Shown one piece after another: positions 33,065 to 61,720 of a stretch of DNA of 64,000 bases. The notes beneath the pieces were generated by a model. That model was given only the letters and a program-made list of their open reading frames with translations. It was not told where the DNA came from and did no database searches. Positions within the stretch are counted from its first letter, which is position 1. Each line of letters starts with the position of its first letter. The DNA is from Sphaerotilus mobilis (GTDB lineage: Bacteria > Pseudomonadota > Gammaproteobacteria > Burkholderiales > Burkholderiaceae_C). The stretch spans positions 62,001-126,000 of the forward strand of contig NZ_SGWV01000013.1 in the NCBI RefSeq assembly GCF_004216565.1, in the 5' to 3' direction. Both the position numbers and the translations under genes were made by a program.

Positions 33065-33160
33065 CCGGAGTCAATCCGGGACGGGCGAGACCCGGCGGAT
33101 GTGGGGTGAATGTCATCGGCCTTGATCCACGGCATTGCGGCGCGCTTTGCTTGTCGGTAT

Positions 33161-33171
33161 TGTCCTGGACA
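33161..33171. promoter_or_regulatory. Short palindrome upstream of the GGDEF-EAL gene
   Basis: TGTCCTGGACA is a perfect 11-bp palindrome 90 bp before the start codon of the cyclic-di-GMP gene. It could be an operator half-pair; no regulator is adjacent, so this is only a candidate. Confidence 0.25.
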
Positions 33172-33260
33172 GATTGGTTCGGGCGGCGATGGCCGTCCTG
33201 GCCCGGTCCGCTCCTTGCCTGATCCCTCGCAAGGCCCTCTCGGCAACCGTGGAGGTCGAC

Positions 33261-51075: not shown

Positions 51076-51108
51076 GAGGCATCACTGAGGCATCACTGAG
51101 GCATCACT
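51076..51108. repeat. Triple 11-bp direct repeat at the yceI stop codon
   Basis: GAGGCATCACT is present three times without gaps. The third copy contains the stop codon of the first YceI gene (TGA on the minus strand at 51106-51104), so the repeats lie in the 3' untranslated part of the operon. Confidence 0.9.
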
Positions 51109-51673
51109 GCTTGACGGCTTCGATCTGGATCACGAGGCGCATGTTGTCCGGGAAGCCCCAGTCCAGGCCGTACTTGACGTCCCACAGGCTGCGCTTGATG
51201 TCGGCGGTGAAGTCGCCGCCGCAGACTTCGCGCTTGAGCATCGGGTTGTCGTAGCAGTTGAACTGCGACGCCTTCAGCGTGATCGGCTGGGTCTTGCCCA
51301 TCAGCGTGAACTGGCCGGTGACCTCGGTGACCTTGTCGCCGTTGAAGACGAACTTGTCGCTGACGAAGCGAGCGGTCGGAAACTTCTCGGCGTTCAGGAT
51401 CTCGGCGCTCTTCAGGTGGGTGTTGAACTGCGCGAAGCCCGAGTTGACCGAGGTGACGTCGACGGTGATGTCGGCCTTGCCGGTCTTGGCGGCGCGGTCG
51501 AGTTCGACGGTGCCTTCCTTCTTGTCGAAGCGGCCGCGGTTGGTGCTGGTGCCGAAGTGACCGATCTCGAAGGTCACGTAGGTATGGCTCGGGTCGATCG
51601 CGTAGGTCGACGGGGCGGCCAGGGCGGCGCCAGACAGGGCCAGGGCGGCGAGGGCAAGGAGGGTTTTCTTCAT
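51104..51673 (-). CDS. YceI-family periplasmic protein (first copy)
   Basis: A 189-residue lipocalin-like protein with a signal peptide (about 1-19, ALA-AP). Family marks: YAIDPSHTYVTFEIGHFG, GRFDKKEGTVELDRA and TGQFTLMGKTQPITL. YceI proteins bind isoprenoid quinones or similar lipids in the periplasm. Two Cys residues (FNCYD, REVCGG) may form a disulfide. It is the last gene of a b561-yceI-yceI operon. Confidence 0.9.
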   Translation of the reverse strand: MKKTLLALAALALSGAALAAPSTYAIDPSHTYVTFEIGHFGTSTNRGRFDKKEGTVELDRAAKTGKADITVDVTSVNSGFAQFNTHLKSAEILNAEKFPTARFVSDKFVFNGDKVTEVTGQFTLMGKTQPITLKASQFNCYDNPMLKREVCGGDFTADIKRSLWDVKYGLDWGFPDNMRLVIQIEAVKQ

Positions 51674-51737
51674 CGGTGACTCCGGGGAGGCTGGGGTTGG
51701 TCGGGAGAGGAGAAGCAGGGAATCTGGAAGGCGTGGA

Positions 51738-52322
51738 TCAGAGCGCGCCGAGGCCACTGATCTGCAGCTTGAACTTGACGGTGACGTCGTTGGCGACCAT
51801 CGAGGTGTCGGACCAGTCGCCGTCGCCGATCTTGAAGTCCAGGCGCTTGATGGCGAAGGTGCCGGTGGCCGTGGCGGTGGCACCGGTGGCGCTGAGAGTC
51901 ACGGGCACGATGACGTCCTTGGTGGCGCCCTTGATGCTGAGCTTGCCGGCGACCTCGTACTTGCCGCCGCCCAGGCCCTTGATGGCACTGGACTGGAAGG
52001 TTGCCTGCGGGAACTTCGGCGTGTTGAACCAGGTGGCCTTAGGCAGTTCGACGTCGGTCTCGGGCGAGCCCATCGTGGCGCTGCCGAGGTCGATGGTGAA
52101 GGCGACCTTGCCGGTCTCGGGCTTCTTCGGGTCGAACGCCAGCTGGGCATCGAACTTCTTGAAGCGACCCTCGACGGGCACGCCCATCTGCTTGATGGCG
52201 AAGCTGACGTCGCTCTTGGCGGCGTCGACCACCGGTGCGGCCTCGGCCGGCATGGCGATCAGGGTGGCGGCGCCGAACGCGGCGACGGCGGTGAGCGAGG
52301 TGAAGAGGCGCAAGGACGTCAT
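51738..52322 (-). CDS. YceI-family periplasmic protein (second copy)
   Basis: A 194-residue paralogue with a signal peptide (cleavage near AEA-AP). Marks: DAAKSDVSFAIKQMGVPVEG, TIDLGSATMGSPETDVELP and KLSIKGATKDVIVPVTL. It lacks the Cys pair of the neighbouring copy. It is 64 bp from that copy and 32 bp after the cytochrome b561 gene. Confidence 0.9.
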   Translation of the reverse strand: MTSLRLFTSLTAVAAFGAATLIAMPAEAAPVVDAAKSDVSFAIKQMGVPVEGRFKKFDAQLAFDPKKPETGKVAFTIDLGSATMGSPETDVELPKATWFNTPKFPQATFQSSAIKGLGGGKYEVAGKLSIKGATKDVIVPVTLSATGATATATGTFAIKRLDFKIGDGDWSDTSMVANDVTVKFKLQISGLGAL

Positions 52323-52354
52323 GGCGATTCCTGTGTGGTGGGCCGTGGGCCGGT

Positions 52355-52942
52355 TCAGACCGGGCCGATGCCCATGCGACCGAGCAGGCGGTCGCGGTCG
52401 ATGATCTGGTGCTTCATGGCGGCGGCCACATGCAACACGACGAGTGCGGCCAGGCTGACGGCGGCGAGCTTGTGCAGCGGCTTGATCAGCTCGGCCAGTT
52501 CCTTGCTGACCGGCACGAAGTCGGGCAGCGGCAGCACGCCGAACCAGACGATCGGGAAGCCGGCCGCCGAGCTGTAGGCCCAGCCCGTCAGCGGCACGGC
52601 GAAGAACAGCAGGTACATCAGGTGATGGGTGCCGTGGTGGGCCTTCTGCTGCCAGGCGGGCATGGCTGCGGTGACGCTGGCCGGCAGTTCCGGCGGGCGG
52701 TTCATCAGGCGCCACAGCAGCCGCAGCGCCGACAACGCCAGGATCGTGACCCCCGCCCACTTGTGCCAGTTGTAGAGCTTCAGGCGGGCAGGCGAGAAGG
52801 GCAGGTCGGTCATGTACACGCCGACACTGAAGGCCCCCACGATGGCCAGCGCCAGCAGCCAGTGCAGTGCGATGGCGACCAAGCCGTAACGTCCGGTGCG
52901 ACCGGCGGTCGGCGGGGCAGAGGTGGCGGTGGCAACGGACAT
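52355..52942 (-). CDS. Cytochrome b561 (bacterial CybB type)
   Basis: A 195-residue four-helix membrane b-type cytochrome. Heme-ligand His candidates occur in VAIALHWLLALAIVG, LYNWHKWAG, KAHHGTHHLMYLLFF and LVVLHVAAAMKHQ. It probably moves electrons between quinol and periplasmic partners. The pairing with yceI genes is common in Proteobacteria. ATG 52942 is chosen over a TTG 33 bp upstream; neither has a good ribosome site. Confidence 0.9.
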   Translation of the reverse strand: MSVATATSAPPTAGRTGRYGLVAIALHWLLALAIVGAFSVGVYMTDLPFSPARLKLYNWHKWAGVTILALSALRLLWRLMNRPPELPASVTAAMPAWQQKAHHGTHHLMYLLFFAVPLTGWAYSSAAGFPIVWFGVLPLPDFVPVSKELAELIKPLHKLAAVSLAALVVLHVAAAMKHQIIDRDRLLGRMGIGPV

Positions 52943-53086
52943 GGCGGGAATGGCGCGTCGAAACGCAGGCTTCAATGAACTGAAGCTTAGGTGCGTGCAC
53001 CCACCACGCAGTTCACCGACCTTGACGCAACCGTTGGAAAACTCTGAACGTCCGTGGCAGGCAGGCCCAGCGGTCCGGAAGGACGA

Positions 53087-54028
53087 TCAGAGGTGTTCGG
53101 CCCGCCAGCGGTCCAGTTCGATCGGCAGGGCGTCCAGTCGGCCCATCGTGACGATGCCGTCCGGGCTGCGGCGCTGCATGGCCTGAAGCGGCGTGCCGGC
53201 CCAGATCTCGATCTGGGGCGGCAGCATCTTGCGCATCTCGGCCAGGCAGTCGAGGGCCTGATTGGGGTTGCTGGCGGCGCTGAAGCTCATCGCCACGAGA
53301 TCGGCCTGATGGGCCTGGGCCGCCAGCAGGATGTCGCGCATCGGCGTCTGCCGGCCCAGGCTCATGTTGAAGCAGCCGCGCACCAGGAAGACCGCCTCGG
53401 CCATGAGCAAGCCCAGGCCGTGGTTCTCGAATGAAGCGGTGGCCAGCAGCACGCGTGGCCGGGCGCTGACGCCGGAATCGGGCCCGGCGGCGATGGCCGA
53501 GCGCAGCACGGTCTCGAGCACCTCGCTGGCGATGTGTTCCTCGAAGATCTCCAGCTGGCCGTGCGACCAGGCGTGGCCGATCTCCGACAGCATCGGAACA
53601 ACCAGGTCGAGCACGAAGCGTTCAAGCCCCAGCCGCAGCAGCGACTGGCCAAGCGAGCGCCGCAGCGCGCCGATCTCGTGGCGGCGCAGCAGTGCGATCA
53701 GGCGTTCGACATCGGTCGGGTCGCGGTCCTCGGCACCGATGCTGCGCAGGGCGGTCGCGCCCGTGTTGCCGCCCAGCAGCAGCAGGTCCTCCAGACCCAG
53801 CCCGACGATGCGCCCGGGCCGGTGTCCGGCGTCCAGCAGGCGCTTGATGTGGCGCAGCCGTTCGACCTGCTCGGGCGGGTACAGCCGCTCACCGTTGGCG
53901 TCGCGCACCGGCTGCGGGAAGCCGTAGCGGCGCTCCCAGACCCGCAGGGTGTCCTTGCCGATGCGGGTGTCGCGCTCGACGGCTGCGATTGTCATGGACA
54001 GACGGTGGGGACTGAGTTCGGCGCTCAT
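53087..54028 (-). CDS. CarH/LitR-like MerR regulator with B12-binding photosensor domain
   Basis: A 313-residue regulator: N-terminal MerR helix-turn-helix (about 12-80, IGKDTLRVWERRYGFPQP), helical bundle (about 105-180) and cobalamin-binding fold (about 190-310). The light-sensing motif W-x9-E-H is present (W154 to E164-H165) and the cobalamin ligand motif is E201-N-H203-G-L-G206. CarH and LitR bind DNA in the dark as B12 tetramers and release it in light. It is divergent from the lipid-modification operon and likely represses it. Start ATG 54028; an internal ATG is possible. Confidence 0.9.
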   Translation of the reverse strand: MSAELSPHRLSMTIAAVERDTRIGKDTLRVWERRYGFPQPVRDANGERLYPPEQVERLRHIKRLLDAGHRPGRIVGLGLEDLLLLGGNTGATALRSIGAEDRDPTDVERLIALLRRHEIGALRRSLGQSLLRLGLERFVLDLVVPMLSEIGHAWSHGQLEIFEEHIASEVLETVLRSAIAAGPDSGVSARPRVLLATASFENHGLGLLMAEAVFLVRGCFNMSLGRQTPMRDILLAAQAHQADLVAMSFSAASNPNQALDCLAEMRKMLPPQIEIWAGTPLQAMQRRSPDGIVTMGRLDALPIELDRWRAEHL

Positions 54029-54095
54029 GGTCGGCGTCTCGGATGAGGTGGGGCGTCAAGCTGCGCCTGCGCGAAAAGTGGTCTTCAAATGTCTT

Positions 54096-54180
54096 GGACA
54101 ATCCATTGAAAGACCTTCGATTCCTGCCTAATATAGCCACCAGAGACCAATCTGACCAGGACAAAAGCTGGTCGTTGTCC
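54096..54180. promoter_or_regulatory. Candidate operator region of the MerR/B12 regulator
   Basis: Three copies of GGACAA occur around the promoter: 54096-54101 and 54159-54164 on the plus strand and 54175-54180 as TTGTCC on the minus strand. The last two form an inverted pair with a 10-base gap and overlap the smaller GACCAG/CTGGTC pair. An outer imperfect repeat GGTCTTCAA / TTGAAAGACC also spans the first copy. These are the best binding-site candidates. Confidence 0.5.
54106..54134 (+). promoter_or_regulatory. Sigma70 promoter of the lipid-modification operon
   Basis: TTGAAA (54106-54111) and TAATAT (54129-54134) with a 17-bp spacer, start point near 54141. It is placed between the GGACAA copies, so a bound repressor would cover it. 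The leader to the first flavoprotein ATG is about 360 bases and includes a short reading frame. Confidence 0.75.
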
Positions 54181-54273
54181 CGAATCCGGCCGGCTTGTCC
54201 AAGCTGACGGGCCCTGTCAGGATCATCGGCAGACGATGAAAACCCAACGAAACGCAACACGAGGGAACTTCCC

Positions 54274-54507
54274 ATGCATGGACGAATCATCGACAGGGTA
54301 GGGCGCGCCGAGGAGGGTTCGCCTGCATCCGTCAGGACGGTCGCTGCGTACAGCCCCTTCATGACGGCCACACCCTTTCGTTTTCAACCGTGCAGACGGT
54401 CGGCCCTGCCGATGGCCCGCTCGAAGCGTCTCTCCTCCTCCCTCCCTCCCTCGTTCGCTTCGGGTTGCTGCACGGTTGCCTTCATGTCCGGCGGGGGCGC
54501 CCGATGA
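54274..54507 (+). CDS. Putative leader peptide/small protein coupled to the flavoprotein gene
   Basis: A 77-residue frame MHGRIIDRVGRAEEGSPAS... with GAGGGA seven bases before ATG 54274. Its TGA overlaps the ATG of the next gene (ATGA at 54504-54507), which suggests translational coupling. The sequence is polar and Ser/Arg-rich, with part coded by a pyrimidine run, and does not look like a folded domain. It may be a leader peptide or a chance frame. Confidence 0.4.
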   Translation: MHGRIIDRVGRAEEGSPASVRTVAAYSPFMTATPFRFQPCRRSALPMARSKRLSSSLPPSFASGCCTVAFMSGGGAR

Positions 54508-55835
54508 GGCGCGTCGCCGTCGTCGGCGCCGGCATCTCCGGTCTGGCCACCGCCTGGCAACTGGGCGGACCGGACGGCCGGGCTGATTTCCAGGTCACGC
54601 TGTTCGAGTCCGGCGCAACGCTCGGCGGGCATGCCCACACGGTCGACGTGACGTTGCCCGACGCCAGCGGGCGGCCGGTCACGCATGGCGTCGATACCGG
54701 CTTCCTCGTCTTCAACCCGCGCACCTATCCGAACCTGGTCCGCCTGTTCGACCAACTGCAAGTGCCGCTGGCCGCATCCGACATGTCCTTTTCGGTCCAG
54801 TCGGTGGCTGACGGGCTGGAGTGGAGCGGCAGCAACCTCGATGGCGTCTTTGCCCAGCGCCGCAACCTGCTGCGGCCGGCCTTCCTCGGCATGCTTCGGG
54901 AACTGCTGCGCTTCAACCGCCTGACGACGGCGCTGGCCGAGGGCGGTGGCGACCAGACGCTGGCCCAGTCCATCGGCGACTTCCTCGACGAGAACCGCTT
55001 CGGCGATGCATTCCGGCGCTGGTACCTGCTGCCAATGATCGGCTGCATCTGGTCCTGCCCGACCGAGCAGATGCTGCGCTTCCCGATCGGCACCTTGATC
55101 CGCTTTTGTCACAACCACGGCCTGCTGCAGGTCAACGACCGGCCGCAGTGGCACACGGTGAGCGGCGGCTCGCGCGAATACGTGCAGCGCATGCGTGCGC
55201 AACTCGGCACGGTCCGGCTGGCAACGCCGGTTCAGGCGGTGCGACGGCTGGATGCCGGCGGTGTGCAGGTGCACAGCGCGCACGGCAGTGAACGCTTCGA
55301 CGAGGTCGTGTTCGCCTGCCACAGCGACCAGGCCCTGCGCATCCTGGGCGACGACGCCAGCCCCGCCGAGCGCGAGGTGCTGGGTGCCATCGCTTACCAC
55401 CCGAACCGGGCCGTGCTGCACACCGACGTGTCCCTGCTGCCGCGCCGTCCGCGGGCTTGGGCGGCCTGGAACTACGAACACGGTGGCGACGGCGGCGAGT
55501 CCTCGGCGGTCTGTCTGCACTACCTGATCAACCGCCTGCAGCCCCTGCCGTTCGCGCAGCCGGTGATCGTCTCGCTGAACCCGGTGCGCCCGCCGCGTCC
55601 CGATCAGGTGCTGGGCACCTACGACTATGCGCACCCGGTGTTTGACCTCGCCGCGATAGAGGCCCAGCGCCGCGTGCCGTCGCTGCAAGGCCAGCGCCAC
55701 ACCTGGTTCTGCGGTGCCTGGACCGGCTACGGCTTCCATGAGGACGGCCTGAAGTCCGGCCTGGCGGTGGCCGGCGCCTTGCGCGCGACGATCGATCCGG
55801 CGCGTGCAGCCCCGGCCGAAAGGCTGGCCGCATGA
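54504..55835 (+). CDS. FAD-dependent amine-oxidase-like oxidoreductase
   Basis: A 443-residue flavoprotein: MRRVAVVGAGISGLATAWQL (FAD-binding) followed by FESGATLGGHAHTVDV and GVDTGFLVFNPRTYPNL, ending in FCGAWTGYGFHEDGLKSGLAVA. This pattern is of the NAD(P)/FAD-binding proteins found beside Cfa-like methyltransferases in photo-oxidative stress regulons. It may desaturate or oxidise an acyl chain; substrate not known. Overlaps the DUF1365 gene (ATGA). Confidence 0.9.
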   Translation: MRRVAVVGAGISGLATAWQLGGPDGRADFQVTLFESGATLGGHAHTVDVTLPDASGRPVTHGVDTGFLVFNPRTYPNLVRLFDQLQVPLAASDMSFSVQSVADGLEWSGSNLDGVFAQRRNLLRPAFLGMLRELLRFNRLTTALAEGGGDQTLAQSIGDFLDENRFGDAFRRWYLLPMIGCIWSCPTEQMLRFPIGTLIRFCHNHGLLQVNDRPQWHTVSGGSREYVQRMRAQLGTVRLATPVQAVRRLDAGGVQVHSAHGSERFDEVVFACHSDQALRILGDDASPAEREVLGAIAYHPNRAVLHTDVSLLPRRPRAWAAWNYEHGGDGGESSAVCLHYLINRLQPLPFAQPVIVSLNPVRPPRPDQVLGTYDYAHPVFDLAAIEAQRRVPSLQGQRHTWFCGAWTGYGFHEDGLKSGLAVAGALRATIDPARAAPAERLAA

Positions 55836-56626
55836 CCACGGCGGTGCCCCGCCACGCGCCCCTGCTGTTGCGCGGCGAGGTCACGCACACACGGCTGCGG
55901 CCGACCTTGCACAGCTTCCGCTACCCGACCTGGATGCTGATGCTGCCGCTGCGCGCCTGGGCCCGCCACCCCGGTGGTGCCATCGCCCGCAACCGCGCCG
56001 CGCTGATGAGCTTTCGCGATGCCGACCATGGCGAAGGCGATGGCGATGCGCTGGCGTGGATCGACGCGCTGCTGCGCCGCGAGGGCATTGCCGATGCCGA
56101 CCTCGACGGCGGCGAGATCTGGCTGCAGACCTACCCGCGTGTGCTTGGCTACACCTTCAAGCCGGTGAGCTTCTGGTACGCCCATGCGGCGGATGGACGG
56201 CTGGTGGCCGTGCTGGCCGAGGTCAACAACACCTTCGGCGAACGCCATGCCTACCTGCTGCAGGGCGAGACCCTGGGCTGGGGCCGCGAGGTCACGGCGC
56301 GCAAGGTCTTCCATGTCTCGCCCTTCTGTGCCGTGGAAGGCCACTACCGCTTCCGTTTCCTGCGCAGCGCGGAAGAGCCGTCGCGGCCCGCCCGCCTGAT
56401 CGCCCGGGTCGACCACGACGACGCCCAGGGCCCGCTGATCGAGACCCGCATCAGTGGCGAGCTGTTGCCGCTGACGCCGCGCCAGCTCTGGCGTGCCTGG
56501 CTGGCGATGCCGCTGCTGACGCTGGGCGTCATGGCGCGCATCCACTGGCAGGCGCTGCGCTTGTGGCTCAAGCAGGTGCCCTTTTTCCGCAAGCCCGAAC
56601 CGCCGTCGATGCCGATCAGCCGTTGA
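55832..56626 (+). CDS. DUF1365 protein
   Basis: A 264-residue protein with the DUF1365 marks: GEVTHTRLRPTLHSFRYPTW, LQTYPRVLGYTFKPVSFWYA, AEVNNTFGERHAYLL and KVFHVSPFCAVEGHYRFRF. The domain almost always stands beside the flavoprotein and Cfa-like genes, as here, so it is probably part of the same lipid reaction. It has a basic, hydrophobic C-terminus (possible membrane contact). Starts inside the previous stop. Confidence 0.92.
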   Translation: MTTAVPRHAPLLLRGEVTHTRLRPTLHSFRYPTWMLMLPLRAWARHPGGAIARNRAALMSFRDADHGEGDGDALAWIDALLRREGIADADLDGGEIWLQTYPRVLGYTFKPVSFWYAHAADGRLVAVLAEVNNTFGERHAYLLQGETLGWGREVTARKVFHVSPFCAVEGHYRFRFLRSAEEPSRPARLIARVDHDDAQGPLIETRISGELLPLTPRQLWRAWLAMPLLTLGVMARIHWQALRLWLKQVPFFRKPEPPSMPISR

Positions 56627-56685
56627 GGCCTGACCGAGCGCTCCCCTCCCGCCCGCCCCCGCCCTTGCCTTCGCCGAAACCCGCC

Positions 56686-57936
56686 ATGCTCGACACCGCC
56701 CTGACCGCCGACCGTGCCGCCCCGCCGCGTGCCATCGACCTCGACACGTTGCTGCCGCGCCTGCCGCTGGCCGCACGCACGGTGCTGCGCTGCCTGCGCC
56801 AGATCCGCCATGGCTCGATCGAGCTGCACCTGCCCGATGGCCAGCTGCTGCGGGTTGGCCACGGCGAGGCGCCTCACGCGTCGCTGCGCATCCACGACTG
56901 GTCGGTCTGCGCCTCGGTGCTCAAGTCGGGCGACATCGGCCTGGCCGAAGCTTTCATCGACGGACGGTGGGCCACGCGTGACCTGCCCGGCCTGCTGCGT
57001 TTCTTCCTGGTCAACCGCGAGGCCATCGAGCGGGTCGTCTACGGCAGCCGCTGGGGCAGCCTGCTGTACCGCCTCAAGCACCTGCTCAACCGCAACAGCC
57101 GGCGCGGCAGCCGGCGCAACATCCACGCCCACTACGACCTGGGCAATGCCTTCTACGAGCGCTGGCTGGACCGGTCGATGAACTATTCGAGCGCCTGGTT
57201 CGCGCAGGGCTTTGGCCAGTCGCTGGAAGTCGCCCAGCAGGCGAAGATGCGCCGGGCGCTCGACGAGGCGGGTGTCGTGCCCGGTTCGCGCGTGCTGGAA
57301 ATCGGCTGCGGCTGGGGCGCCGTGGCCGAGACGGCGGCACGCAGCGGCGCACTGCTGACAGGTGTGACGCTGTCGACCGAGCAGCTGGCCTGGGCCCAAC
57401 GCCGCCTGGCCGATGCAGGACTGGCCGGCCGCGCCGACCTGCGCCTGCAGGACTACCGCGACATCACCGACGAGCCCTTCGATGCGCTCGTCTCCATCGA
57501 GATGTTCGAGGCGGTCGGCCGCGACTACTGGCCGAGCTACTTCGAGACCGTGCGGCGCTGCCTGAAGCCGGGTGGCCGTGCCTGCATCCAGAGCATCACG
57601 ATCCATGACGATCTGTTCGACCGCTACGTGCGCTCGACCGACTTCATCCAGCAGTACATCTTTCCCGGCGGCCTCCTGCCCAGCCCGAAGGAGTTCCGGC
57701 TCGCGGCCGAGCGGGCGGGTCTGGTGGTGGAGCAGCAAATGGCCTTCGGACCCGACTACGCCGAGACGCTGCGGCGCTGGCGGGCGATGTTCCTGGCCGA
57801 AGATGAAGCGGTCCGCAGCCTCGGCTTCGACACCCGCTTCATCCGGACCTGGGACTTCTACCTCGCCTACTGCGAGGCCGCCTTCGACGCGGGCAGCACC
57901 GACGTCGTCCAGTTCACGTTGCGGCGGCCGTCGTGA
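56686..57936 (+). CDS. Divergent cyclopropane-fatty-acid-synthase-like methyltransferase
   Basis: A 416-residue SAM-dependent methyltransferase. It keeps HYDLGNAFYERWLD (about 149-162), EIGCGWGAVAET (SAM motif, 206-216), LSTEQLAWAQ and the segment MFEAVG. Compared with E. coli Cfa from memory, the Cys before the SAM motif appears as Ser (YSS, 167-169) and the His of HTI as Gln (QSI, 302-304); both belong to the bicarbonate site of Cfa. It may therefore methylate an unsaturated chain rather than form cyclopropane. The stop overlaps the next gene start (GTGA). Confidence 0.88.
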   Translation: MLDTALTADRAAPPRAIDLDTLLPRLPLAARTVLRCLRQIRHGSIELHLPDGQLLRVGHGEAPHASLRIHDWSVCASVLKSGDIGLAEAFIDGRWATRDLPGLLRFFLVNREAIERVVYGSRWGSLLYRLKHLLNRNSRRGSRRNIHAHYDLGNAFYERWLDRSMNYSSAWFAQGFGQSLEVAQQAKMRRALDEAGVVPGSRVLEIGCGWGAVAETAARSGALLTGVTLSTEQLAWAQRRLADAGLAGRADLRLQDYRDITDEPFDALVSIEMFEAVGRDYWPSYFETVRRCLKPGGRACIQSITIHDDLFDRYVRSTDFIQQYIFPGGLLPSPKEFRLAAERAGLVVEQQMAFGPDYAETLRRWRAMFLAEDEAVRSLGFDTRFIRTWDFYLAYCEAAFDAGSTDVVQFTLRRPS

Positions 57937-58544
57937 GCCGCTCGACCTCGTTGCGTGTCGACCGCCGACGCGCCCTGCAGACGCTGACCCTGCTCGGCGC
58001 TGTCGCCGCTGTCGCCGCTGTTACCCGACCGATGCCGGCGTTCGCCAACACGCCGCCGGTGATGCCGATCGAAATCGGCGACGCCCTGCCGGACGCTCGC
58101 TTGCAAGGTGGCATGCGCTTTCGCTGGTTCGGCCTGCATGTCTATGACGCGCGGCTGTGGAGCGGCACGCCGCTGCGCCAGGACGACGACCTGGCCAGCC
58201 GGCCCTACGCGCTGGAGCTGGCCTATGCGCGCCGGCTCGAAGGCAAGGCCATCGCCGAGCGTTCGCTCGACGAGATGCGGCGGCTGGAGGTGGTCTCGGC
58301 GGCGGAGGGGCAGGAGTGGCTGCAGGCCATGCGCGTGGCCTTCCCCGATGTCGCGCCCGGTGACCGCCTCGTCGGCCTGCACCGGCCGGGTCGTGGCGTG
58401 CAGTTCCTGCACAACGGACGGGTCACCGGTGAGGTCGGCGAGCGGCGCTTCGCACGGCTGTTCTTCGGCATCTGGCTGTCCTCGGCGAGCCGCGAGCCGG
58501 TGCTGCGCGCGCAGCTCCTCGGGCTTGAGACGGCGTCGCGTTGA
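57933..58544 (+). CDS. Exported chalcone-isomerase-like protein
   Basis: A 203-residue protein starting with GTG (57933) inside the previous stop. It has a Tat-like or Sec signal (VDRRRALQTLTLLGAVAAVAAVTRPMPAFA, cleavage near AFA-N). The mature part has a chalcone-isomerase-like fold pattern (FRWFGLHVYDARLWSG, LELAYARRLEGKAIAERSLDEM). Such proteins bind fatty acids in plants and bacteria. Role in the cluster: probably lipid binding in the periplasm. Confidence 0.82.
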   Translation: MSRSTSLRVDRRRALQTLTLLGAVAAVAAVTRPMPAFANTPPVMPIEIGDALPDARLQGGMRFRWFGLHVYDARLWSGTPLRQDDDLASRPYALELAYARRLEGKAIAERSLDEMRRLEVVSAAEGQEWLQAMRVAFPDVAPGDRLVGLHRPGRGVQFLHNGRVTGEVGERRFARLFFGIWLSSASREPVLRAQLLGLETASR

Positions 58545-59923
58545 TGCTGCAAGAGCCGAAAGAGCCAGAAGAGCAGCAAGAGCGGACCGCGCCGACCGCA
58601 CGGCGGACCGGCCTCGGCTATGGCCTGCTGGGCCTGCCGCTGGCCTTCATCGCCCTGCCGCTCTACGTGCTGCTGCCGCACCACTATGCCGACCGGCATG
58701 CGGTGCCGCTGGCGGCGCTGGGCCTGCTGCTGCTGGCGGTGCGGCTGGCCGACGCGGTGCTCGACCCGGCGCTCGGTCGGCTGGCAGACCGGCTGCTTGA
58801 CCAGCCGGGCCGGCGCGCCTGGCAGGTCATTGGTCTGTGTGCGGCCTTGATGGCGGCCGGCTTCTGGGCCCTGTTCCACGCACCGTCTGGCGCCAGCGTG
58901 CCCCGCTTGCTGCTCTGGTGCGGCGCGGGCCTCGTGCTGACCTACCTGGCCTACAGCCTAGCCAGCATCGTCCACCAGGCGTGGGGCGCACGGCTCGGCG
59001 GCAGTGACCTGGCGCAGGCCCGGCGGGTCGCGTGGCGAGAGGGCGCGGCGCTGCTGGGCGTGATGGTGGCCAGCGTGCTGCCGTCCCTGGCCGGGCTGGA
59101 CGTCACCGCCGGCCTGCTGGCGCTGCTGCTGCTGGGTGGCTGGTGGGCCTTGCGTTCGGTGCCGGACGTGCCCAGCGCCGTCCGCCCTGCGGCCCGGTCA
59201 GGTTCCAGCGGCGGCAAGCCGGCCTCTCCGTGGGCCTTGGCAGGTTTCCGGCCGCTGCTGGCGGTCTACATGCTCAACGGCATTGCCAGTGCGATTCCGG
59301 CGACGCTGGTGCTGTTCTTCGTGCGCGACCGGCTGCAGGCGCCGGCCTGGGAAGGCGCCTTCTTGGCGATCTACTTCGCCGCCGGCGCCCTGTCTTTGCC
59401 GTTGTGGCTGCGCCTGGTGGCCCTGCAGGGCCTGGTCAGCGCCTGGCTGGCCGGCATGCTGCTGGCGGTGGCGACCTTTGCGGGCGCGGCCTTGCTCGGT
59501 GCCGGCGACGTGGCCGGCTTCCTGGCCGTCTGTGCCGCCAGTGGCCTGGCACTCGGCGCCGACCTGGCCGTGCCCGGCGCCTTGCTGGCCGGTGTGGCAC
59601 GACGGGCTCAGCCGGTGAGCCACCCCCCGGTGGGCGGGTCTGCCGACCGGGGCGCCGAGGTGGCCGGCGAGGGCGCCTGCTTCGGCTGGTGGAACGCCGC
59701 CACCAAGATGAACCTGGCGCTGTCGGCCGGTCTGGTGCTGCCGGCGCTGGACCTGGCCGGCTACCGGCCCGGCGTCACCGATGCGTCGGCCTTGACCGCC
59801 CTGAGCCTGGCCTACGCCGTCCTGCCCTGCCTGCTCAAGCTGGCCGCTGCCGCGCTGTTGTGGCGTTGCGCGGCGGCGATCCATCCACCGACACCCCCCT
59901 TGATCTCTCTGGAGACCCGATGA
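58544..59923 (+). CDS. MFS/GPH-type membrane transporter
   Basis: A 459-residue carrier with about 12 membrane helices and an acidic, Gln-rich N-terminus (MLQEPKEPEEQQER). The loop ADAVLDPALGRLADRL matches the GPH (glycoside-pentoside-hexuronide) MFS pattern, as in the carrier of the related photo-oxidative stress clusters. Substrate unknown, possibly a lipid or osmolyte. The ATG overlaps the previous TGA (TGATG). Confidence 0.85.
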   Translation: MLQEPKEPEEQQERTAPTARRTGLGYGLLGLPLAFIALPLYVLLPHHYADRHAVPLAALGLLLLAVRLADAVLDPALGRLADRLLDQPGRRAWQVIGLCAALMAAGFWALFHAPSGASVPRLLLWCGAGLVLTYLAYSLASIVHQAWGARLGGSDLAQARRVAWREGAALLGVMVASVLPSLAGLDVTAGLLALLLLGGWWALRSVPDVPSAVRPAARSGSSGGKPASPWALAGFRPLLAVYMLNGIASAIPATLVLFFVRDRLQAPAWEGAFLAIYFAAGALSLPLWLRLVALQGLVSAWLAGMLLAVATFAGAALLGAGDVAGFLAVCAASGLALGADLAVPGALLAGVARRAQPVSHPPVGGSADRGAEVAGEGACFGWWNAATKMNLALSAGLVLPALDLAGYRPGVTDASALTALSLAYAVLPCLLKLAAAALLWRCAAAIHPPTPPLISLETR

Positions 59924-60462
59924 ACACGACCTTGCTGGCCTTGGGCCGCCGATGGCTGCTGATCCTCGCACTGGCGTTGGCGGGCTGCGCCGGACCCCAG
60001 GTGCAGGACTACGCCCGCGAGACGCCCGCGCTGGATCTGCGCGACTATTTCAACGGCAACCTGGTCGCGCACGGCGTGTTCACCGACCGCTCGGGCGCCG
60101 TCAAACGCCGCTTCGTCGTCCAGCTCAAGGGCACCTGGCAAGGCGACCAGGGCGTGCTGGAAGAGGACTTCGTCTACAGCGACGGCGAGAAGGAACGGCG
60201 CGTCTGGCGCCTTCAGCGCACCGCCGAGGGCCGCTACATCGGCCGGGCCGACGATGTCGTTGGCGAGGCGCAGGGCGAGTCCGCCGGCAACGCATTGCGC
60301 TGGCGGTATACGCTGCGCCTCAAGGTCGACGGCAGCACCTGGGATGTGCAGTTCGACGACTGGATGTACCTGATGGATCGGCAGGTCATGCTCAACCGCG
60401 CCGCCATGAGCAAGTTCGGCATCCACCTGGGTGACGTCACCCTGTCCTTCTACAAGCCCTGA
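59920..60462 (+). CDS. DUF3833 lipoprotein
   Basis: A 180-residue protein with a lipobox LALAGC (Cys about 23) and DUF3833 marks: FNGNLVAHGVFTDRSGAVKRRF, GTWQGDQGVLEEDFVYSDGE, RVWRLQ and DDWMYLMDRQVMLNRAAMSKFG. Probably anchored in the outer membrane or inner membrane facing the periplasm. GGAG precedes the ATG, which overlaps the carrier stop. Confidence 0.92.
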   Translation: MNTTLLALGRRWLLILALALAGCAGPQVQDYARETPALDLRDYFNGNLVAHGVFTDRSGAVKRRFVVQLKGTWQGDQGVLEEDFVYSDGEKERRVWRLQRTAEGRYIGRADDVVGEAQGESAGNALRWRYTLRLKVDGSTWDVQFDDWMYLMDRQVMLNRAAMSKFGIHLGDVTLSFYKP

Positions 60463-60474
60463 GGCAACGACGCG

Positions 60475-61248
60475 ATGGCCCTGAACCCGACGATGAGTGA
60501 CTGGCGCCACCGCGTGGTGTGGCTCGTTGGCGCCTCCACCGGCATCGGCCGGGCGTGTGCCGAGCGCTTGGCCGAGCGCGGCGCACATGTGGCGGTGTCG
60601 GCCCGCGATGGCGAGGCGCTGGCCGCCTTCGGGCAGCGCCACCGCGACGCGCTGGTGCTGCCGCTGGATGTCACCGAGCCGGGCGTGCTGGCCGGTGCGG
60701 CCGACACCATCCGGGCCCGCTGGGGCCGCATCGACCTGGTCGTCTACTGCGCCGGCACCTACCGTGCGCAACGGGCCACCGCGTTCGACCTGGCCGACAT
60801 GCTGCGCCACCAGCAGGTCAACTACGTGGGCGCGCTGCACCTGCTCGATGCCGTCTTGCCGGTGCTGCTGCAGCAGGGCAGCGGACACCTGAGCCTGATC
60901 TCCAGCGTGGCCGGCTACCGTGGCCTGCCACAGGCGCTGGCCTATGGTCCGACCAAGGCGGCGCTGCAGAACCTGGCCGAGGTCCTCTACCTGGACCTGA
61001 GCGACCGCGGCATCGGCGTGTCGGTCGTCAACCCGGGCTTCGTGGAGACGCCGCTGACCGCGCAGAACGAGTTCCGCATGCCCGCGCTGATCTCGCCAGC
61101 CGCTGCGGCCGATGCGATGCTGGCCGGCTGGGCGCGGGGCGACTTCGAGATCCATTTCCCCAAGCGTTTCACCTGGACGCTCAAGCTGCTGGGCCTGCTG
61201 CCGCCGGGGCTGTACTTCAAGGCCATCCGCAAGGCGACGGGACTGTGA
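60475..61248 (+). CDS. Short-chain dehydrogenase/reductase
   Basis: A 257-residue SDR: cofactor motif GASTGIG (19-25), catalytic Ser in SLISSVAG (143-144) and YGPTK (Y157, K161). NAG is replaced by CAG at about residue 92. The C-terminal 60 residues have a hydrophobic segment (TLKLLGLLPPGLYF), which may touch the membrane. Probably acts on the lipid product of the cluster. 12 bp follow the DUF3833 stop. Confidence 0.92.
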   Translation: MALNPTMSDWRHRVVWLVGASTGIGRACAERLAERGAHVAVSARDGEALAAFGQRHRDALVLPLDVTEPGVLAGAADTIRARWGRIDLVVYCAGTYRAQRATAFDLADMLRHQQVNYVGALHLLDAVLPVLLQQGSGHLSLISSVAGYRGLPQALAYGPTKAALQNLAEVLYLDLSDRGIGVSVVNPGFVETPLTAQNEFRMPALISPAAAADAMLAGWARGDFEIHFPKRFTWTLKLLGLLPPGLYFKAIRKATGL

Positions 61249-61249
61249 G

Positions 61250-61720
61250 ATGAGCGCCGCTGCACGCCACCCGGATCCACGCATGGCCGTGTTGATCGGC
61301 TATTTCGAGCAACTGAGCCGCGCCGAGCTGGCGCGCATCGACGCCATCTACACGCCCGATGCGGTCTTCAAGGACCCGTTCAACGAGGTCCGCGGCCCAC
61401 CGGCCATCGCCGCCATCTTCGGCCACATGTTCGACACCATGACCGCACCGCGCTTCATCGTGCGTGATGCGGTGGTGCAGGGCGACGACGCCTTCCTGAC
61501 CTGGGATTTTGTGTTCGAGTCGACCACCCTGCGGCGCGCGCCGGACGGCAGTGCGCGCCAGTGCATCCGCGGCGCCTCACACCTGAAGCTCGACGCGAAC
61601 GGGCGCATCGCGGTCCACCGCGACTACTGGGACGCGGCCGAGGAACTGCACGAGAAGCTGCCGCTGATCGGCGCGCTGATGCGCTGGCTGCGCCGCCGTC
61701 TGGCGACGCCGTCGCGCTGA
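61250..61720 (+). CDS. SnoaL-like (NTF2-fold) protein
   Basis: A 156-residue protein with an NTF2-like pattern (YFEQLSRAELARIDAIYTPDAVFKDPFNEVRGPPAI, GASHLKLDANGRIAVHRDYWDAAEEL). Members bind or isomerise small hydrophobic molecules. The ATG is one base after the SDR stop. Last gene of the operon, facing corA. Confidence 0.88.
   Translation: MSAAARHPDPRMAVLIGYFEQLSRAELARIDAIYTPDAVFKDPFNEVRGPPAIAAIFGHMFDTMTAPRFIVRDAVVQGDDAFLTWDFVFESTTLRRAPDGSARQCIRGASHLKLDANGRIAVHRDYWDAAEELHEKLPLIGALMRWLRRRLATPSR

Follow-up and report, generated by a model that had tools for sequence, protein, structure and literature searches.

A LitR/CarH-like regulator, a furan-fatty-acid-type operon and a conserved structured RNA share one locus in Sphaerotilus mobilis

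Furan fatty acids (FuFAs) are made in R. sphaeroides and R. palustris by three proteins, of which UfaM methylates, UfaD desaturates and UfaO (DUF1365) adds oxygen derived from O2; in R. sphaeroides UfaO is the furan-forming monooxygenase (both according to passages of PMC7380195). Such synthesis has been reported under the control of ChrR and of class II LitR. The window analysed here, a stretch of 64,000 nucleotides from Sphaerotilus mobilis (GCF_004216565.1, contig NZ_SGWV01000013.1, positions 62,001 to 126,000; the genome comprises 4.65 Mb in 15 contigs), contains a locus in which genes of this type are joined to an apparent adenosylcobalamin (AdoCbl) sensor, as they are across many Burkholderiales, and in which a conserved structured RNA lies between the regulator and the operon. 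It is rather likely that two regulatory inputs converge here on one photoprotective locus.

The regulator gene (53087–54028, minus strand) faces eight co-directional genes on the plus strand. These encode a UfaD-like flavoprotein (Amino_oxidase; 54504–55835), a UfaO-like DUF1365 protein (55832–56626; function after passages of PMC7380195), a UfaM-like Cfa/CMAS S-adenosylmethionine methyltransferase (56686–57936), a chalcone-isomerase-like (CHI-like) protein (Chalcone_3; 57933–58544) with an apparent signal peptide, a GPH/MelB-type carrier of the major facilitator superfamily (MFS_2; 58544–59923), a DUF3833 lipoprotein (59920–60462), a short-chain dehydrogenase/reductase (SDR) oxidoreductase (adh_short; 60475–61248) and a SnoaL_2 (NTF2-like) protein (61250–61720). 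All nine open reading frames (ORFs) are confirmed, and Pfam concurs with the names that an original prediction, made from the sequence, had given them (MerR_1, B12-binding_2 and B12-binding for the regulator, and the operon families). That prediction had also described the operon as tightly overlapping, which holds for four of the seven junctions and fails for the other three, where 59, 12 and 1 bp separate the genes. The intergenic gap between the regulator and ufaD is 475 bp. Among 80 named loci found through homology to the regulator, a UfaD-type gene lies opposite the regulator in 74, the UfaD, UfaO and UfaM types are jointly present in 70 and all eight operon genes in 49, with part of the gene-poor loci truncated by contig ends. 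Given this recurrence, the arrangement of regulator and operon is not due to chance.

The regulator contains a MerR helix-turn-helix (PF13411, 53 bits; cut-off 21.6) and a four-helix B12-binding_2 domain (PF02607, 30 bits; cut-off 23), while the Rossmann-type B12-binding domain (PF02310) scores 25 bits, below its cut-off of 32.1. The phmmer alignment to CarH extends through residue 261, and the best PDB matches are CarH structures (E 2.4e-25). The motifs W154-x9-E164H165 and E201xH203xxG206 can be read in the protein just as predicted, and when the window's protein is aligned with those of 80 loci (81 sequences) all six of these residues are retained in 77, with W154, E164, H165 and the axial-type His203 each retained in 80–81. 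Three of the four published SignatureFinder elements (GxxW, EH, GxxH and GxxxP; passages of PMC11796333) are present; GxxH is not matched literally, residue 200 being F, not G, at a variable position (G in 31/81 sequences). The score against the NCBIfam CarH equivalog model NF052513 is 118.1 bits, below the cut-off of 400, and because of this and the unmatched GxxH we label the protein LitR/CarH-like, class I type, and not a CarH equivalog. Its closest named relative is from Leptothrix discophora (84% identity), followed by Sphaerotilus species and a Burkholderiaceae metagenome-assembled genome, and matches at E≤1e-20 occur in 138 of 299 genomes of the family. The genome encodes a PF01923 cobalamin adenosyltransferase (G000:C5:55208–55684) and has no match to the CobA-type enzyme (PF02572). 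Conservation thus lends good support to the predicted control of the locus by light and B12. The MerR protein might conceivably bind B12 without sensing light, as a B12-dependent or redox regulator; its score under the equivalog cut-off would suit this, as would the report that some LitR classes sense light via partners or by unknown means (passages of PMC9758184). We regard it as quite improbable, as the near-invariance of W154, E164, H165 and His203 is hard to explain without an adenosyl-capping site, and related genes are induced by light or singlet oxygen in other bacteria.

Putative operators for this regulator flank a σ70-type promoter-like sequence in the intergenic gap. Site A (54089–54101, no strand assigned; ATGTCTTGGACAA) differs at one position from the palindrome TTGTCNNNGACAA and lies just upstream of the −35 element of TTGAAA-N17-TAATAT (54106–54134, plus strand; −35 at 54106 and −10 at 54129), which would serve the operon. 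Site B (54152–54164, no strand assigned; CTGACCAGGACAA) has two mismatches and lies 63 bp downstream of site A. When 350 nt outward from codon 14 of the regulator were scanned in the window and 79 loci (80 regions), the palindrome was found with at most one mismatch in 68 regions, versus 0.65 in mononucleotide shuffles, and exactly in 36, versus 0.03. Paired sites 62–64 bp apart (each with at most two mismatches) are present in 31 of the 80, and 29 of these 31 have TTGNNN-N16/18-TANNNT between the sites. There are five one-mismatch sites within the window (shuffle mean 0.64). One of these five, the LitR-operator-like TTGTCCTGGACAG at 33160–33172, precedes a GGDEF/EAL-like ORF by ~90 bp and may be a chance occurrence. 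In the dark, the AdoCbl-loaded repressor would occupy the two palindromic operators bracketing the promoter; in the light the Co–C bond would break, the repressor would be released, and ufaD-ufaO-ufaM together with five accessory genes would be transcribed.

UfaD-, UfaO- and UfaM-type proteins are encoded together, judged at family level and by gene order relative to passages of PMC7380195, and the fit of the first three operon genes to these proteins suggests that the operon probably makes protective FuFAs. UfaM would methylate an 18:1 acyl chain, UfaD would desaturate it and UfaO would add oxygen from O2 to yield a methylated FuFA. Pfam and the D-O-M order bear out furan-fatty-acid-type genes where methylated and furan fatty acid families had been predicted, and UfaO matches (E≤1e-20) occur in 237 of the 299 family genomes. 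The UfaM-like protein has its top scores to cyclopropane synthase models, with no UfaM model among the matches listed, and would be compatible with a methylated or cyclopropane fatty acid as the end product in place of a FuFA; this is unlikely in view of the UfaD- and UfaO-type genes immediately upstream, in the FuFA gene order of R. palustris.

The operon leader of ~360 nt appears to contain a separate RNA gene. The conserved RNA (54382–54491, plus strand; covariance model R1) is a three-way junction with helices P1 (54385–54395/54468–54478), P2 (54397–54415) and P3 (54419–54428/54456–54465), the last closing a CU-rich loop of 27 nt (54429–54455). In relatives the corresponding gap repeatedly shows two stems, the first of them variable, with a small hairpin between them; the second stem has a CUCCUCCUCCCUCCCUCCC-type loop and is followed by a T-rich tail. 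When 37 distinct sequences are aligned, 23 consensus pairs result, all 23 with compensatory double changes; 92.5% of paired cells are satisfied, versus 36.7–46.4% when the structure is slid, and there are 181 compensatory cells versus a mean of 49 in shuffles. Folding of single sequences gives z between −4.0 and −5.0 in four of five, the window included, and 0.63 in L025, because the segment used for that locus was truncated within the P1 5′ strand. Rfam 15 has no match at gathering in the window and none at E≤10 over 54000–54600, and a known RNA or riboswitch was rejected on that basis. Upstream of its start, the frame of ufaD stays open as far as a GTG at 54390, and a reading of this region as an N-terminal coding extension of UfaD was rejected because the stems covary, lengths vary among relatives and 17 loci have the RNA without an adjacent UfaD.

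The ~27-nt loop is YC-rich, unpaired and strongly conserved on covarying stems, and contains the anti-Shine-Dalgarno motif CCUCCUCCC. With these properties, and given the binding preferences of Rho and ribosomal protein S1, the RNA could be a decoy whose C/U-rich loop sequesters such a protein. This, too, seems unlikely, since the CU-loop small RNAs (sRNAs) described, as far as passages of the papers on them go, act on ribosome-binding sites or are predicted to target them.

The distribution of the RNA differs from that of the operon. Model R1, built from 35 sequences, has the window's RNA as its sole genome match at E≤1 (E 1.4e-24; 150 of 3791 first-pass candidates scored), and weak extra matches number five in the window (E 0.95 or worse) and one in L026 (E 0.86). 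It matches 40 of the 80 LitR loci at E≤1.5e-4, including four outside the model-building set (L057, L061, L066 and L081); weaker relatives are found in Parvibium (L032) and Polynucleobacter (L066, L081). The loci of Rubrivivax gelatinosus (L045) and Leptothrix discophora (L008) combine LitR, the complete set of eight operon genes and the RNA. Across the family, a search whose stricter filters miss weak matches, and in which some genomes are incomplete, places the RNA in 216 of 299 genomes with one match per genome. In an order-wide search it was found in 5 of 200 genomes, namely its own and four of its family (family membership of the other 195 was not recorded). Forty loci were fetched from RNA-positive, LitR-negative genomes: the ufa operon adjoins the RNA in 23, and there is no ufa operon within about 8 kb of it in 17. 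Within three ORFs of the RNA on either side, corA recurs in 10 of these 17 and a glutathione peroxidase gene in 5 (Pfam-confirmed examples). In the window, corA and hpf come after the operon, which would fit its loss or gain at a constant site. The same three helices are predicted anew from the 17 operon-free loci alone (16/21 pairs with double changes), which is support and not proof, as those loci were found using the model.

These patterns make an sRNA gene in its own right, here located inside the leader of the light operon, the most likely reading of the RNA. It might otherwise be a cis-acting ufa leader, an attenuator or thermosensor in which P1 and the U-rich tail terminate transcription or sequester the ufaD start, and the CU loop base-pairs to the ribosome-binding site of ufaD. 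The position of the RNA speaks for this: 12 nt separate the end of the R1 match from the start of ufaD in the window, and a search for CU runs in the window and 74 loci (75 regions) places a CU-run hairpin immediately before ufaD in 39. We nonetheless find it doubtful, because the 17 operon-free loci have the RNA with the same helices, 49 of the 216 RNA-positive genomes (some incomplete) have no UfaO match at E≤1e-20, and the RNA has a putative ECF (extracytoplasmic function)-type promoter of its own.

This promoter-like sequence, of ECF/σE type, is GGAACTT-N16-TCATC (54264–54291, plus strand). GGAAC followed by TC at ECF spacing occurs within 300 nt upstream of the RNA in 62 of 81 loci, versus a shuffle mean of 5.4 and maximum of 12; in some loci there is a further hit with a different spacing, and when that spacing is excluded the count stays at 62/81. 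The RpoE promoter of Shewanella and others is given as GAACTT-16/17-TCCAAA in passages of PMC4336711. One RpoE above the curated cut-off is encoded in the genome. At the other end, the T fraction after P1 reaches up to 0.70, versus 0.06–0.24 further downstream (80/81 loci), resembling a terminator. Upstream of the RNA, near its promoter, a ACTGATCAGT-like palindrome is present in L121, L125, L132 and L133, and hints at a further, perhaps TetR-type, regulator.

The sRNA gene proposed here would thus have its own promoter and a terminator-like 3′ end, and the RNA would act in trans, its CU-rich loop pairing with Shine-Dalgarno regions. It would have two sources, transcription under envelope stress and the light-induced leader, and may link the locus to a second signal of stress. 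A broader claim can be put forward tentatively, at somewhat less than an even chance: that the RNA represents a new σE-controlled family of anti-Shine-Dalgarno sRNAs forming a post-transcriptional arm of the envelope-stress response in one Burkholderiales family, and that in Leptothrix and relatives it sits within the leader of a B12/light-controlled FuFA operon, where one RNA would answer to light as well as to envelope stress. The RNA surprises more than the rest of the locus, in view of its covariation, its spread through the family, the lack of an Rfam 15 match and its putative ECF-type promoter. Enterobacteria have σE-dependent sRNAs, and if the RNA is σE-dependent it would be the counterpart of these in the bacteria considered here.

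Several observations weigh against the convergence of two inputs as proposed. The operator motif was derived from the same regions in which it was counted and the ECF motif was first noticed in the regions scored for it, so both comparisons with shuffles are post hoc. In the window itself both operators are imperfect, the ECF −10 is TCATC, which departs from the TCnnA of GGAACTT-N16/17-TCnnA and looks weaker than that of the family, and the U-tail looks weaker than the family average. Three exact operator palindromes lie elsewhere in the genome. To these can be added F200 and the low equivalog score of the regulator. An RNA match is missing in 40 of the 80 LitR loci and, under the stricter filters of the family search, in 70 UfaO-positive genomes; the operon therefore does not need the RNA. 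Finally, deletion of RSP1087, 1088 or 1089 in R. sphaeroides had no detectable effect on fatty acids (passages of PMC7380195), and the accessory genes therefore have no proven role. The post hoc motif controls and the misfit of the window's ECF −10 slightly lower our confidence in the combined explanation.

For the accessory proteins, the predicted extracytoplasmic step agrees with their exported appearance, from a signal peptide read by eye in the CHI-like sequence and a lipobox (LAGC) read in DUF3833, whose Cys23 is invariant in 37 sequences. The CHI-like model has a mean predicted local distance difference test (pLDDT) score of 88 and is good except for the N-terminal 40 residues; its fold matches chalcone isomerases and plant fatty-acid-binding proteins. 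The DUF3833 model is a beta-barrel (pLDDT 93) with weak calycin/lipocalin-like matches, and for the GPH protein the sequence matches to structures of MelB are weak (E 0.025 at best). Binding or transport of lipid by the three is plausible, and they would handle the lipid outside the cytoplasm.

Elsewhere in the genome there are other candidates for light and stress regulation. A search for ChrR (TIGR02451) at E≤0.001 finds nothing in this genome and, among 14 control genomes, a match in one (Caulobacter); control of the locus by ChrR is rejected. The absence of photolyase and sigma factor genes was predicted for the window; for photolyase this is a statement about the window alone, as the genome has two matches to PF00875, and RpoE is also encoded in the genome. 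The accompanying proposal that regulation is through light and B12 alone does not stand, given the putative ECF-type promoter and the conserved RNA in the same gap, the presence of RpoE and the co-occurrence of RNA and operon in LitR-negative genomes (the 23 of 40 fetched loci). A second LitR-like MerR gene (C1:766000–785000; L194:7511–13122) is divergent from genes for an FAD oxidoreductase, the photolyase-related DPRP and a photolyase, the last being one of the two PF00875 matches, a setting that we take to resemble class III LitR loci. Its product resembles the regulator of the window in the DNA-binding part only (48% over 85 residues), and no B12 domain is detected in it by Pfam; the region upstream of the gene has operator-like sites with two mismatches at best.

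Genes neighbouring the regulator vary among relatives. Two YceI-family genes and a cytochrome b561-like gene adjoin it in 7 of the 80 loci, and are present in the window (51104–52975, minus strand) and in L008, L009 and L011–L015; YceI proteins are small lipid-binding barrels. In many relatives (L010, L012, L018, L028, L032 and L064 among them) a glutathione peroxidase gene lies between litR and ufaD, after the LitR promoter, some also having folE2. Pfam confirms the genes of this region for L010 and L018, and both glutathione peroxidase and folE2 are absent from the litR-ufaD gap of the window.

Among the papers listed in literature searches neither the RNA nor a betaproteobacterial class I LitR-ufa operon was found, an earlier account in Sumi 2018/2020 being possible. 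The likeness to the RSP1087-1091 (ChrR) and LitR/PplR regulons noted in the original prediction agrees with passages of PMC7380195 and PMC9758184. R. sphaeroides RSP1091-1087 with UfaM has UfaD, UfaO and UfaM in common with the window, and from length and order RSP1089, 1088 and 1087 (402, 186 and 245 aa) would correspond to the window's GPH, DUF3833 and SDR proteins; the R. sphaeroides genes are under RpoE-ChrR control in a five-gene operon with UfaM elsewhere (RSP2144), whereas the window has a LitR-like regulator and eight genes in a ChrR-free genome (passages of PMC7380195). R. palustris RPA2571-2568, in which FuFA synthesis is demonstrated, has the same ufaD-ufaO-ufaM order (RPA2571-2570-2569), and passages of that paper mention neither LitR nor the RNA. 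The Pseudomonas class II LitR proteins PplR and PmlR share with the window a LitR-family repressor with two sites at a σ70 promoter, and their clusters contain light-induced ufaM, SDR and FAD oxidoreductase genes, types also seen in the window; they differ in having a single B12 domain, LOV partners and phrB in the cluster, and their operator, TGTACA-N12-TGTACA, is unlike the window's palindrome (passages of PMC9758184). Shewanella SO_3374-3386 and a periplasmic glutathione peroxidase form one RpoE2-ChrR oxidative-stress regulon that includes a cfa operon, and some relatives of the window likewise have a glutathione peroxidase gene at the locus; ChrR control and the inclusion of phrB set the Shewanella regulon apart (passages of PMC4336711).

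For the RNA, the closest described sRNAs are the stress-linked alpha-r14/NfeR1, CcsR and 'cuckoo' RNAs (passages of PMC10746234, PMC3927594 and PMC10253847). NfeR1 and rhizobial RNAs carry the same anti-Shine-Dalgarno CCUCCUCCC motif in hairpin loops. The alpha-r14 and cuckoo sRNAs are alphaproteobacterial and have serial hairpins with short CCUCCUCCC loops in several copies, whereas the window's RNA has one three-way junction, one ~27-nt loop and a single copy, and falls outside that group. RF02278, the Burkholderia double-hairpin RNA, has no match at E≤10 over 54000–54600; it differs in having two hairpins and three to five copies in Burkholderia (passages of PMC5688073). Like Neisseria NmsR it is betaproteobacterial and has CU-rich unpaired stretches that match ribosome-binding sites (same passages). 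Analogy with these alphaproteobacterial anti-Shine-Dalgarno and Burkholderia CU-rich sRNAs suggests that the RNA of the Sphaerotilus locus pairs with Shine-Dalgarno regions in a similar manner.

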